Both the position numbers and the translations under genes were made by a program. Shown piece after piece: positions 8,617 through 62,680 of a stretch of DNA of 64,000 nt. Every line of letters begins with the position of its first letter. The first letter of the stretch is position 1. The notes beneath the pieces are model-generated. The model did no database searches and was not told where the DNA came from. It saw only the letters and a program-made list of their open reading frames with translations. Source of the DNA: Gammaproteobacteria bacterium (GTDB lineage Bacteria > Pseudomonadota > Gammaproteobacteria > Steroidobacterales > Rariloculaceae). The stretch is from the NCBI GenBank assembly GCA_022820625.1, contig JAJEFE010000146.1:1-64000 (forward strand), given 5' to 3'.

Positions 8617-9666
8617 TCAGGGGTCAGACTGCGAATTCAATTCAGGCTGCGCTTCCGGGTCAGCGGGCAGAATCAGCGAGCGAAAATACTCGACGTCTCG
8701 CGCAACCGCCTCCGTCAGCGATTCGTCCTGGAAGAAATGGTCCGAGCCGGGGTAGCTGTGGAACCGGTACGGGTGGCCGAGCAGGTAGAGTTCCTTCGCC
8801 AGACGCTCCGACCAGTGGTAGGGCGCGCCGGTGTCGCCGACTGCGTGATGCATGACGACGGGCGCCTGAAGATAGCCCAGGTAGCGCAGCGGCTCGCGGG
8901 CGGTCCAGTCGTAGGGCTCGTCGAGTGCCGCCATGTCCCGGCGGAGTTCTTCGATTCGCGAGTTGTCTGTGTCGCTGCCGTCGTAGGCGAGCCGGTCGTC
9001 GTAACGCTGGTAGTAGTAGGCCTGATCCCAGATCTCGCCGCCGACGCCGGACCATAGCGCCGCGCCCCTGACCCGATCGGTTGCGAGCAGGACCCGCAAC
9101 GAAACTTCCGCGCCCAGGGAGTGCCCCCACATGAAAACGTTGCCGGTATCGGCCTCTTCGATATCCGCAAGGCCCGAGAGCAGCGCGAGCACGTCCTCGG
9201 AGTAGTAGCCAGTCGCCAGGAAACCGTCCGTGTACTCCACCCCCTCCGACGCGTTATGGCCCCGGTAGTCGGGCATGATGACCAGGAATCCACGCTGCAC
9301 GTACAGCTCCGGTATCGGGCGGTAGTAGTCGCCCGGCCTGGAATCCACGCCGCCCGCGGTAAAGCCGTACCGGGGAGGGTCCGGGTGAAAACCGTGATTG
9401 GCCACGATCACCGGAAACCCGGCATCGGGGCGTTCACCCATCGGGACCGCGACCATCGAGAAGACCGTCAGGCCGGAGGACGGGTACGACACAAGGTAGG
9501 CGGTGTAACCGGGTCCGCCATCCAGCTCGCGTTCGAACTGCAGGCTGGCGGAGAAATCGGTTTCGCGCAGCGCGTCGATGGACAAGGGCGCGGGCAGTGC
9601 CGAGGCGGCCGCCGGCAGGAGCCAGGCCAGGGCGAGTGCGAGTGCGAGTGCGATCATCCACTTCAT
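8617..9666 (-). CDS. Secreted alpha/beta hydrolase (prolyl-oligopeptidase/dienelactone-hydrolase-like)
   Basis: 349 residues with a hydrophobic signal peptide (ALALALALAWLLPAAASA), so probably periplasmic. The nucleophile elbow is GHSLG (Ser183), with Asp278 (VGDTGAP) and His310 (GSDHFF) as the likely remaining triad residues. HGF near residue 91 is the expected oxyanion-hole region. The family includes esterases and peptidases, so the bond cleaved is uncertain. Its ATG overlaps the stop of symporter 2 by four bases (ATGA), so the two are translationally coupled and likely act on one substrate, hydrolysis outside followed by import. Confidence 0.87.
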   Translation of the reverse strand: MKWMIALALALALAWLLPAAASALPAPLSIDALRETDFSASLQFERELDGGPGYTAYLVSYPSSGLTVFSMVAVPMGERPDAGFPVIVANHGFHPDPPRYGFTAGGVDSRPGDYYRPIPELYVQRGFLVIMPDYRGHNASEGVEYTDGFLATGYYSEDVLALLSGLADIEEADTGNVFMWGHSLGAEVSLRVLLATDRVRGAALWSGVGGEIWDQAYYYQRYDDRLAYDGSDTDNSRIEELRRDMAALDEPYDWTAREPLRYLGYLQAPVVMHHAVGDTGAPYHWSERLAKELYLLGHPYRFHSYPGSDHFFQDESLTEAVARDVEYFRSLILPADPEAQPELNSQSDP

Positions 9667-11273
9667 GGGATCAGTTGCTCGAACAGGAACAGGAACACGA
9701 TCGTCAGCGCGAAGAATCCCAACAACAGGTAGCTGATTCTATCCACCCGGCCGGAAACCAGGTACCAGCCGCCGTCCCGTTCGGGCAGCCCCCGCTCCCG
9801 GAACGCCTTCTGCTGACCCACGATCGAGTACTCGGACCACTCGTCCTGCCGTCCGTCGATCAGCCGGCTGGCCACCAGCGAGATGACGATATTCGAGGCG
9901 CCGCCGATCAGGCAATACCAGGGCCAGGCGATGTCGGTCTGGCTCGCGACGTACCAGATCACCGCGAATCCCACCGCCACCCCCACCAGCAGGCCCCGTT
10001 CCGTGGTCTGTTTCGAGAAGAACCCGAGCCCGTACATGCTGAGCTTGGCGCCGACGAAGTAGGAACCGATCCGCGAGAGCGTCTGCAGTATCGAGCCTTC
10101 GCTCTGGGAATAGACGATCGCGGGAACGATGATCAGCAAGGCCCAGACCACGGTGAAGCCCCGGGTGATCCTCAGGTAGTGTTCGGGCGATTGGCCGGGC
10201 CGGTAGTACTTCTCGTAGAAATCCACGGTGGAAATCGTCGCCAGCGAATTGAACGACGAGTCCAGCGACGACATGGACGCCGCGACGATCGCGGCGGCGA
10301 TGATGCCCATGAGGCCCGGCATCCCGTAGTCGGCGACGAATTCCAGGATGATGGTGTTGCCGTTTTCGAACTCCCGCCCCTCGTAGTAGCCGTAGAACAG
10401 GATGCCCAGCAGGAAGAACAGGAAATAGATGAAGAACGCGCCGAACCCCATCAGCAGGAAGGATTTCTTGGCATCGCCGATGTTCTTCGCCGCCAGCGTG
10501 CGCTGCACCATCATCTGGTTGGCGCCGTACACGGTGACGTGAAAGATCGTCATGGCGATGATCCCCGACCATACGGTCGCCTCGACGGTCCAGTCGAGGG
10601 AGAAGTCCAGTGGGTTCGTCTTGCCCTGGGCCTTGAGGTCGGCGAGGACTTCGCCCACCGGCGCGGGCATTTCGCCCAGCAGGGCGAAGAACACGATGAA
10701 GGCCCCGACGAACAGGACCGCGGCCTGGATCACGTCGGTCCAGATCACCGCCGTGATGCCGCCCAGCATCGTGTACACCAACGCGATGATCGTCACCGCG
10801 ACAATCGCCGTCACGACATCGACCCCGGTGATGAACTGGATGACCAGGGAAGTCGCGTAAAGGATCGCGGCCGAGGTCAGCGCCTGCGAAACCAGGAATA
10901 CCCCGGAAATCACGCTGCGGGACGTCGCGCCGAAGCGCCGCTCCATGTACTCGTAGATCGAGGCGACACCGCTGTTGAAGAAGAATGGCAGGAAAAAAGT
11001 CACCACGATGAAGACCACGATGGGGTAGTTCAGATGGATCGCGATGACCGCAAGACTGTCGGTGTAGGACCACGCGGGGCCGCCCAGGAATGACAGCGCA
11101 CTGACGTAGGTGGCTACCACCGAGACGCCGATCGCCCACCACGGCGTGGTCCGGCGGCCCAGGTAGAAGTCCTCGGCGGTGGCGATCCGCTTGCTCAGGA
11201 CGAAACCGAGCAGCAGATTGAGCAGCACGTAGGCGATGAGAATCGCCCAGTTCAGCGTTCCGAACGTACCCAT
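9663..11273 (-). CDS. Sodium:solute symporter (SSS family), paralogue 2
   Basis: 536-residue inner-membrane Na+ symporter starting MGTFGTLNWA, with the same motif set as the 93-1700 product (TTPWWAIGVSVV, FLGGPAWSY) and many transmembrane segments. First gene of a two-gene unit with the alpha/beta hydrolase. Transcribed divergently from lacI; the gap contains a palindrome (11357-11370) about 85 nt upstream that is the candidate operator. The two paralogues probably carry related organic acids or sugars, but the substrate cannot be read from sequence. Confidence 0.93.
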   Translation of the reverse strand: MGTFGTLNWAILIAYVLLNLLLGFVLSKRIATAEDFYLGRRTTPWWAIGVSVVATYVSALSFLGGPAWSYTDSLAVIAIHLNYPIVVFIVVTFFLPFFFNSGVASIYEYMERRFGATSRSVISGVFLVSQALTSAAILYATSLVIQFITGVDVVTAIVAVTIIALVYTMLGGITAVIWTDVIQAAVLFVGAFIVFFALLGEMPAPVGEVLADLKAQGKTNPLDFSLDWTVEATVWSGIIAMTIFHVTVYGANQMMVQRTLAAKNIGDAKKSFLLMGFGAFFIYFLFFLLGILFYGYYEGREFENGNTIILEFVADYGMPGLMGIIAAAIVAASMSSLDSSFNSLATISTVDFYEKYYRPGQSPEHYLRITRGFTVVWALLIIVPAIVYSQSEGSILQTLSRIGSYFVGAKLSMYGLGFFSKQTTERGLLVGVAVGFAVIWYVASQTDIAWPWYCLIGGASNIVISLVASRLIDGRQDEWSEYSIVGQQKAFRERGLPERDGGWYLVSGRVDRISYLLLGFFALTIVFLFLFEQLIP

Positions 11274-20906: not shown

Positions 20907-21049
20907 GGCGGCCATACACGGAACAGGCTTGTGAGCGTCGTGTGCGCGGCGCGGGGCCATGGATGGCCAGGAGCGCCGCGCGCCGATCCGAGCCCGCCAT
21001 GGATGGCGGGCGAGGTTAAGCTCACAAGCCTGTTCCGTGTATGGCCGCC
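20907..21049. repeat. Conserved-core, unique-arm hairpin element (copy B)
   Basis: Perfect 30-bp inverted arms (20907-20936 and 21020-21049) enclose an 83-nt core (20937-21019). The arms have no similarity to those of the copy at 50325-50469, while the cores differ at only 7 of 83 positions. The core folds into two hairpins. The first has a GC stem topped by GGCCA-TGGA-TGGCC; the second is GCCCGCCA-TGGA-TGGCGGGC. The core ends in TTAA. It lies between convergent genes (kinase and rplQ), so it could also act as a two-way terminator. Confidence 0.9.
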
Positions 21050-27823: not shown

Positions 27824-28092
27824 CTAGTGCTCCATCAACCTTATTACGCCGTATCAGCGCGTTCACAAGCGCGCAGATGCGCGACGCCGGCTCGCCGACG
27901 TATTGGGCATACGTCAAGAGACGGCAACAAAGCAGATGCGCGCTTGTGGACGCGCCCTTCGGGTGGCCGCAGGCCCGCCTCTGGCGGCGTTGCGCCCCTT
28001 GACCATGGGCCCACCATGGCCGGCGGGCCGCGCCTTGCCAGGAGCGGGCCTGCGGCCACTGATACGACATTATGAGGTTGACGCAGCACTAG
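27824..28092. mobile_element. MITE-like palindromic element, 269 bp
   Basis: No coding capacity. Terminal inverted repeats of 34 bp (27824-27857 and 28059-28092) match at 28 of 34 positions, and both ends begin with CTAG. Internal structure includes a ~24-bp inverted repeat (about 27857-27880 with 27933-27956, core CACAAGCGCGC) and perfect 16-bp arms (27963-27978 and 28044-28059) around a GC-rich loop. It occupies the break between the ferredoxin gene and rpsH, where rpsN is normally found. Confidence 0.75.
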
Positions 28093-50153: not shown

Positions 50154-50494
50154 GGCGTTACTCCTCTGTCTGTCTGCCCGTGCTTTCCTGCACGCCGACA
50201 TTGAAGCGCAAACGCCGGTCAACTCCATGATGGATCAGGGCAACGAACGTGGCAAAAATGATGAATTGTGATGGGTGGCTAACCGGCTCCACATCCGAGA
50301 CGTCCACAAAACGCATCCCCCGCTGCGGGCGCGTGTGCAGATACCGCTTGCGCACTTAATCTCGCCCGCCATCCCTGGCGGGCTCGAATCGGGGCTCGGC
50401 GCTCCTGGCCATCCATGGCCCCGCGCCGAGCCCACGACGTGCGCAAGCGGTATCTGCACACGCGCCCGCGGCTAAACTTGCGAATCGCCCGAGA
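50154..50494. other. 341-nt intergenic region holding hairpin element C
   Basis: Between the OmpA-like gene and the last vWA gene. Apart from the element at 50325-50469, I see no gene or clear promoter. The OmpA-like promoter, if separate, should lie within 50154-50324. Confidence 0.6.
50325..50469. repeat. Conserved-core, unique-arm hairpin element (copy C)
   Basis: Perfect 31-bp inverted arms (50325-50355 and 50439-50469) enclose an 83-nt core (50356-50438) that is the reverse complement of copy B's core with 7 substitutions. The arms share nothing with those of B or A. In the first core hairpin, substitutions relative to B keep pairing (G-C to T-A, and T-G to G-C). It lies between two genes transcribed in the same direction. 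Confidence 0.9.
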
Positions 50495-61429: not shown

Positions 61430-62680
61430 CTATTGAGCTATGATCTTCCTGTACTCGTTGTATTCATCCCAGAGGGCCGCCCGCAACAGCGGATCCTCCT
61501 CCTTGGTGGCCGCCTCGCAAAGCTGCCGGGCAACCTTGTCCGTGTCCTCGCATCCCTCGACGGGGGGAGGCGCTTCCTCCGGCAATTCGGCTCGCGCGAG
61601 AATCGGCCGCCGGCTGGCAGGGTCGTTGCCGCCACCGCCACCAGCGGACCCGCCGGTGGGCACGTTGCCGCCGCCATCGGCGCCACCGCCCGGCATGGAG
61701 CCGTCTCCACCGGGCACGCCGCCCGCACCGCCGAAGCCCTCGTCGGCGGCAGAGCCTATGCCGCCCCTGGCGATGGCCTCCTGCTCGGCGCCCATGATTT
61801 CGTCGAAGTCTTCCAGGGATTCGTTGAAGATACCCTCAGCGTCCGATACGCGGCCCGCTACGCCGGTGCCGCCTGCGCCGCTGCCGGGCCAGGCGCCTTC
61901 CTCGCCTCCAGCGCCCGCCGAGTCGCCGCCGAACCCGCCGTCACCGGTCTCCTGACCGCCGCCCGCCTGACGGGAATCGCCGCCCTGACCGCTGCCGTCT
62001 TCGCCGCCCATTCCACCGTTGCCGGATTCCCCGCCACCGGCCTGACGCGAGTCGCCGCCCTGGCCACCCTCTTCGCCGCCGTCACCGCCCGGCATGCCGT
62101 CCTGTCCGCCTCCTCCTTCCTGGCCTTCGCCGCCTGCGCCCTGGCCACCGGCCTGACGTGAATCGCCACCCTGACCGTCTCCGTCTCCTTCCTGACCTGG
62201 AGTACCGCCCATTCGATCACCTGACTGGCCGTCACCGCCATCGCCCTGACCGCCCGCCTGCTGACCCTGCTCGCCCTGCTGACCACCGGAGGGGAAGGGG
62301 AAACCACCGCTCGGTGAGGGTAAGCCGCCGCTGGGGGAAGGCATCCCACCACTCGGCGAGGGCATCCCGCCGCTCGGTGAAGGCATACCGCCACTCGGCG
62401 AGGGCATACCGCCACTCGGTGAAGGCATACCGCCACTCGGCGAGGGCATACCGCCACTCGGTGAGGGCATACCGCCACTCGGTGAGGGCATACCGCCACT
62501 GGGCGAGGGCGGTGGCGGCATTCCGCCGCTCGGTGAGGGCATCCCGCCGCTGGGCGAAGGCGGTGGCGGCATTCCGCCGCTGGGGGGCGGGGGCACCGTT
62601 GACTGGCTCTTGCAACCCAACAGGAGTACAGCGCCTGCGCAAACCAACAACAACCTGAAAGGGATGTTCCCGAGACGCAT
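61430..62680 (-). CDS. Repeat-rich lipoprotein (PSPSGGM heptads and Gly-rich region)
   Basis: 416 residues with a lipobox LLLGC (Cys23). Residues ~30-135 are about a dozen copies of the heptad PSPSGGM, encoded by 21-bp tandem repeats (~62290-62590). A long Gly/Gln/Asp/Glu region follows, with three GGDSRQAGG units. The C-terminal ~120 residues are non-repetitive and carry two cysteines (CEDTDKVARQLC) that could form a disulfide. It probably forms a flexible tether from a membrane to the periplasm or cell surface. First gene of the cluster. Confidence 0.75.
   Translation of the reverse strand: MRLGNIPFRLLLVCAGAVLLLGCKSQSTVPPPPSGGMPPPPSPSGGMPSPSGGMPPPPSPSGGMPSPSGGMPSPSGGMPSPSGGMPSPSGGMPSPSGGMPSPSGGMPSPSGGMPSPSGGLPSPSGGFPFPSGGQQGEQGQQAGGQGDGGDGQSGDRMGGTPGQEGDGDGQGGDSRQAGGQGAGGEGQEGGGGQDGMPGGDGGEEGGQGGDSRQAGGGESGNGGMGGEDGSGQGGDSRQAGGGQETGDGGFGGDSAGAGGEEGAWPGSGAGGTGVAGRVSDAEGIFNESLEDFDEIMGAEQEAIARGGIGSAADEGFGGAGGVPGGDGSMPGGGADGGGNVPTGGSAGGGGGNDPASRRPILARAELPEEAPPPVEGCEDTDKVARQLCEAATKEEDPLLRAALWDEYNEYRKIIAQ
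62285..62590. repeat. 21-bp tandem repeat within a lipoprotein gene
   Basis: About a dozen in-frame 21-bp units (one form: ggtgagggcataccgccactc) encode PSPSGGM. Copy number is likely to vary by slippage without frameshift because the unit is a multiple of three. Confidence 0.8.

Follow-up and report, generated by a model that had tools for sequence, protein, structure and literature searches.

Paired drift of site-specific arms and exchange of cores in an amplified TwoAYGGAY-like element of a Rariloculaceae genome

TwoAYGGAY (Rfam RF01731; Weinberg et al. 2010, PMC2864571) is an RNA family proposed to bind CsrA, in which two GGA hairpins are held inside a poorly conserved external stem (PMC4333381). 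It shares an Rfam clan (CL00106) with RsmW. Like CsrB/C and RsmX/Y/Z, RsmW is a single-locus small RNA with many sites, and the hairpins of these RNAs present A(N)GGAX loops that a CsrA dimer usually uses in pairs. The high-affinity site for RsmE is an ANGGAX hexaloop situated directly on a stem (PMC4005645). Among DNA repeats, the REPs of the GTAG and CGTC families are palindromic, dispersed and intergenic, and lie near the 3′ ends of genes (PMC3733652). Perfect hairpins can additionally be created and repaired by template switching, with new ones arising in a single event (PMC8794818). The element described here has TwoAYGGAY as its closest known family. Both are gammaproteobacterial and multi-copy, with adjacent twin hairpins bearing ANGGAX-type loops and an enclosing stem that is variable (P1, 31 bp, in the present element). 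An earlier note on this DNA, which held that no described family has such a plan, is thus corrected by TwoAYGGAY, with its GGA hairpin pair in a variable external stem.

The window analysed is a stretch of 64,000 nt from contig JAJEFE010000146.1 (assembly GCA_022820625.1) of a gammaproteobacterium of the Rariloculaceae. Copy B of the element occupies the plus strand, with a protein-kinase-like gene and the gene for ribosomal protein L17 as neighbours. Its left arm (20,907–20,936), the 5′ strand of P1, is complementary at 30 of 30 positions to its right arm (21,020–21,049), the 3′ strand, and between them is a constant 83-nt core (20,937–21,019) composed of the P1 junction and two hairpins. Both apical loops (20,959–20,964 and 20,999–21,004) read ATGGAT closed by CC/GG, a hexaloop of the CsrA/RsmE ANGGAX type, and the fold of the whole copy has an energy of −123.7 kcal/mol (z = −12.8 relative to shuffled sequences). 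Copy C lies on the minus strand, downstream of a gene that weakly matches the VWA domain and upstream of a gene of the OmpA family. Its left arm (50,439–50,472) and right arm (50,322–50,355) pair at 33 of 34 positions around a core, again of 83 nt (50,356–50,438), whose loops read ATGGAT (50,411–50,416) and AGGGAT (50,371–50,376). Placed in the same orientation, the cores of B and C have 7 differences; the arrangement that the earlier note reported for these two copies, inverted arms around a shared core, is therefore accurate. A scan of the whole window for inverted repeats gave no long, near-perfect spaced pair beyond B and C. Copy A, on the plus strand, is cut by the contig end and retains the 3′ half of the core with hairpin 2 (1–37) and the right arm (38–68). 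Contig ends hold many copies, as expected for repeats. Since one locus of the related genome G005 (L066) matches, across a single element, both the start of the window contig (L041; contig C109 of the window's own genome, G000) and the start of contig C108 (L037), the window contig probably runs into C108 via copy A.

These copies belong to a real, amplified and structured family. A search of the whole 4.56-Mb genome with the core, as the earlier note had suggested, finds about 40 core copies by BLAST and at least 45 distinct places with a covariance model trained on 50 copies, and the intact copies are flanked by near-perfect arms. Intact copies measure 143–150 bp in total, their arms of 27–37 bp enclosing a double-hairpin core of 83–86 nt, and well over 95% of their arm pairs are Watson-Crick on average. 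On the strand that carries the GGA loops, the layout is P1 (27–37 bp), hairpin 1, hairpin 2 and the return strand of P1, forming a three-way junction. In the 50-copy alignment, 30 of the 31 P1 pairs vary on both sides, and P1 covariation reaches 0.459 as against 0.135 for shuffled columns and 0.05–0.08 for slid columns; paired changes are present in the hairpin stems as well. Cores fall into two subtypes with an identical layout, and a GCGTC tag precedes or borders the core. The same covariance model finds about as many copies in G005 as in G000, 30 rows in G001, fewer in four other genera of the family, and no copies in four congeners with small genomes.

Arms and cores differ sharply in how far they are shared. 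Mean pairwise identity in this genus is 61% for arms and 89% for cores, whereas a MITE has constant terminal inverted repeats. The claim that arms have no similarity between sites is correct for B against C alone; family-wide, the arms follow a degenerate consensus that, read outward, is GC-NNNN-AAGGGCTGTCCGCACACACCCTCGC. Among paralogs, arm identity and core identity are uncorrelated (r = 0.06), which means that arms and cores have had separate histories.

The model for RF01731 matches 23 of 369 gammaproteobacterial genomes sampled across the class, often with several copies each, and the folded matches display the same plan as the element. It has no match in G000, nor to nine loci of the window's type (B, C and seven more) even at E ≤ 10, and no known Rfam family matched this type. 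Because it fails the RF01731 score, the element is termed TwoAYGGAY-like and is not counted as a member. Its loops are ANGGAX and not strictly AYGGAY, its core sequences differ from those of TwoAYGGAY, and it further departs from that family in its roughly 50 copies, its site-specific arms of 27–37 bp, their lockstep drift and the exchange of cores; our literature search found no description of TwoAYGGAY with about 50 copies, lockstep site-specific arms and core exchange. It is likewise distinct from CsrB/C, RsmX/Y/Z and RsmW in being a two-site module present in many dispersed copies.

The plan recurs across Gammaproteobacteria. Chance model matches in relatives brought to light a second type, with another core and the same combination of long arms and two ANGGAX hairpins. 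Because its model rests on two sequences and readily gives long hairpins high scores, the counts need confirming with a better model; these are 81 rows in G014, 49 in G017, 20 in G009, 17 in G020, 14 in G019, 8 in G015, 6 in G013, 2 in G007 and 1 each in G000 and G005, along with occurrence in 33 of the 369 genomes. One second-type copy (L276) scores 44 bits against the RF01731 gathering cut-off of 43, and two others score 42.7 (L243) and 37.6 (L261). Nearly all second-type sequences inspected carry both ANGGAX loops, which are kept in six genera and class-wide. Their arms pair at about 23 of 24 positions, with outer-arm identities of 0.36 in genus g4 and 0.32 class-wide. A constant core inside long, near-perfect, site-specific arms is thus the rule, and since second-type arms are nearly unrelated between sites, the plan is realised more strictly there than in the window. 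Weak matches to the first type were also seen in other families (G026, G147, G397 and G273; L324–L327), with L324 and L326 retaining the GGA loops and an ATTTAGC / CTTAAGC junction.

The loops are strongly conserved. C-ANGGAX-G is found in 74 of 79 copies at loop 1 and again in 74 of 79 at loop 2, with the A, the GGA and the closing pair fixed and the N and X positions free. N is T or C in 59 of the 74 at loop 1 and G in 44 of the 74 at loop 2. In genus g9 the N is missing from the second loop, a variant also known in RsmZ (PMC4005645). Both loops, in the window's type and in the second type, accordingly agree with the high-affinity CsrA/RsmE consensus of the same study. The mismatches that remain in the arms of 74 intact copies comprise 16 G-U and 2 A-C (p = 0.0013), and this preference indicates that one strand matters. 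CsrA (PF02599) is encoded in all three element-rich genomes (G000, G001 and G005), and its RNA-binding ends, MLILTRR and VHREEI, appear intact by eye. Element-free congeners with small genomes encode it too, and the element is thus dispensable for CsrA function. A model of the RsmZ family gave no match in six genomes, but it also produced below-cut-off signals in unrelated controls, which makes its result uninformative. The best-supported function is that of a two-site docking RNA for CsrA; the prediction draws on loop evidence that is strong.

At orthologous sites, arms are passed on with the site and acquire their changes in matched pairs; cores, by contrast, are exchanged between sites. Eleven ortholog pairs, with 319 pair positions, contain 32 paired changes, 4 G-U half-changes, no A-C and 3 other differences, which amounts to about 10% change per arm position against 13.4% in the flanks. 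Twelve of the 32 paired changes are of transversion types, as are 48% of the flank substitutions; transversion types cannot pass via G-U, and the paired changes therefore did not arise solely along a G-U path. The site of copy B in G005 has kept its arms with three adjacent paired changes (pairs 19–21) around a core of the other subtype, and between locus L022 and its ortholog in G005 one base has been inserted at matching positions of the two arms. Across 21 site pairs, the arms most resemble those of the orthologous copy in 14 but the core does so in only 6, and in 16 of the 21 a paralogous core from the same genome is closer than the orthologous one. The flank search used 3774 of 4420 query bases, with sites L027, L028 and L035 covered in part. 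The genomes compared are metagenome-assembled, and some copies (L043 and L088) look chimeric; in most of the copies compared, the arms are intact and lie on one contig with orthologous flanks. If the k141 in the names of the G005 contigs denotes k-mer length, most k-mers would span core and arm together, and chimeric assembly would then be unlikely to explain the swaps.

Taken together, these data are best read, with a probability of roughly 0.55, as an amplified TwoAYGGAY-like RNA element whose stem drifts in lockstep, probably through template-switch repair, whose cores are exchanged and which may dock CsrA; the evolutionary part of this reading is firmer than the CsrA part. Each copy would be the DNA of an element that acts single-stranded, most likely as RNA transcribed from the GGA-loop strand, and that serves as a small module on which a single CsrA/RsmA dimer docks. 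From the 3′ flanks of genes, it could titrate CsrA or mark transcripts for it. The family, which we infer to have been mobile at first, has been amplified to about 50 dispersed copies in these genomes. After a copy has settled, its P1 would drift near the neutral rate, a change in one arm being matched in the other, probably because template switching during replication copies one arm onto the other and because selection acts against unpaired stems. Copying from arm to arm predicts a pair change rate close to the mutation rate of a single site, and the observed 10% is nearly so. The G-U bias requires a strand-specific single-stranded form under selection, so that arm copying is not the whole story; hence the paired-change pattern and the bias together lead to an explanation that combines copying with selection. 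Cores would be homogenised and swapped among sites by ectopic recombination or gene conversion. The reversed pattern of a constant middle and private ends then has a plain cause, namely that cores are exchanged while stems stay at home. As in the hairpins attributed to template switching (PMC8794818), the stems are perfect and change by matched multi-base events. Those hairpins are rRNA and microRNA stems, whereas the element offers some 50 parallel copies, longer stems and far more events. It thereby constitutes a natural experiment in how long stems change yet stay paired, with 30-bp stems trackable at orthologous sites in several species.

The position of the copies relative to genes favours another possible reading, albeit a doubtful one, in which the element is a bidirectional 3′-end hairpin, a terminator or exonuclease block whose stem forms in both directions of transcription. 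By a simple codon-usage gene caller, 42 of the 53 copies of this genus with both neighbours called lie closest to a 3′ gene end, and these cases peak sharply at 22–28 nt past the stop codon whichever way the copy is oriented (18 sense and 24 antisense). The gene context is convergent for 22 of the 53 and divergent for 7, as against 6 convergent and 8 divergent among the window's gaps of at least 60 nt. The 24 of 42 genes whose 3′ ends face the antisense strand would not carry the GGA loops on their transcripts, a point against the CsrA-docking reading. The stems are not followed by a T-run, however, and a hairpin of this kind leaves the two conserved GGA loops and the strand bias unexplained. 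The 3′-end preference is seen in this genus alone; for the second type in other genomes, a rough check with a home-made gene caller gave 11:11 and no such preference.

It is improbable, too, that compensatory evolution acted alone, with selection on a folded RNA keeping P1 paired and no copying between arms. The excess of G-U over A-C (16:2) points to selection, which may explain some of the pairing with no need for template switching, and the paired changes in the hairpin stems and the strong conservation of the loops are consistent with this. To that extent the suggestion that arms are selected at each site for stem formation is upheld, though it fits only part of the evidence. Against it, paired changes accumulate almost as fast as flank substitutions and leave few intermediates; 12 of the 32 are transversion types that lack a G-U intermediate, and both a clustered triplet and a paired insertion occur. 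Pairing across 27 bp is also unusually strict, at some 97–99% Watson-Crick and about 1% G-U.

A palindromic repeat acting at the level of DNA, of the REP/BIME or MITE kind and moved by a transposase in trans with its RNA-like features incidental, is unlikely. The element shares with REPs and BIMEs a palindromic, dispersed and intergenic character and a placement mostly at 3′ ends and in convergent gaps (PMC3733652), and the GCGTC tag beside the core is reminiscent of them. Yet the stem of the element is not a REP stem. REPs are 20–40 bp long with a constant stem, whereas the element, at 143–150 bp, has a constant core and loops, a variable outer stem and no RAYT. A cognate RAYT is typical of GTAG REPs and not of CGTC REPs. 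The Y1 transposase (PF01797) is absent from the 13 members of the bacterial family that were searched (G000–G012), the element-rich ones included, and variable ends with constant loops are the opposite of the design of REPs and MITEs. Both the loop conservation and the G-U bias, moreover, are strand-specific.

The least probable alternative, raised in the earlier note, has the arms made when a core inserts, by inverted copying of one flank (fold-back or template-switch insertion); the nearly unrelated second-type arms (0.32–0.36), the ability of template switching to make perfect hairpins in one event (PMC8794818) and the G005 allele of site C, a lone diverged right arm beside an identical distal stretch, are in its favour, but within this genus the arms follow a common consensus, orthologous arms are inherited with paired changes while cores are swapped, and the G005 alleles of L008 and L017 are clean empty sites with no arm. 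A one-arm empty site, which the note had proposed to look for in relatives, was thus encountered at site C; the alleles of L013 and L019 in G001, where the element is gone and 7–13 nt of the distal right arm are left, are deletions, given that sister and outgroup are both filled. No precise target duplication was found at the junctions examined, and the empty sites of L008 and L017 have no precise junction. At L168, the G001 locus orthologous to site C, about 900 bp of other sequence occupies the element's place. Other candidate vehicles were rejected: reverse transcriptase (PF00078) is absent from G000 and G001, the core pattern occurs in no IMG/VR contig, and an integron attC site, considered because the core ends in GTTAAGC, lacks its partner site.

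A broader form of the preferred reading, an amplified TwoAYGGAY-like RNA element with lockstep stems and circulating cores, may be put forward tentatively. These would be dispersed CsrA-docking elements found throughout the class, in which only the GGA hairpins are selected, cores circulate, private stems are rewritten by template switching, and tens of copies tune CsrA. The element also offers a possible explanation of the orphan RNA family TwoAYGGAY as a dispersed, multi-copy element, and its copies would allow titration of CsrA by repeats to be tested directly.

Several minor features of the copies and of the window were recorded. At L043, L088, L052 and L075, left and right arms are mismatched to each other, and at L043 one arm is similar to those of L011 and the other to that of L020; such copies reflect either recombination between copies or assembly chimeras. 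Ten loci (L038, L084, L009, L085, L017, L165, L172, L175, L042 and L049) have tandem partial end copies beside a full copy, each made of an arm alone or of half a hairpin and an arm, and each carrying the arm sequence of its own site. Two contigs filed under Dehalococcoidia, JAJEIA010000101.1 (L062) and JAJDWF010000062.1 (L088), are 93% and 98% identical to G000 beside their elements and are likely mis-binned rather than transferred. Within the window, an inverted repeat whose 24-nt arms (88%) enclose 51 nt containing small hairpins (27,857–27,955) shares a gene gap with a 46-nt imperfect hairpin (72%; 27,963–28,059); GGA twin loops were not seen in either, and the two possibly represent another repeat family. 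Tandem repeats of 21 nt, about 12 units, lie at 62,254–62,560, where they form the end of an open reading frame with no Pfam match or adjoin it. Two sodium:solute symporter paralogs (93–1562 and 9663–11,273), about 9.5 kb apart, are 71–73% identical in DNA over several stretches.
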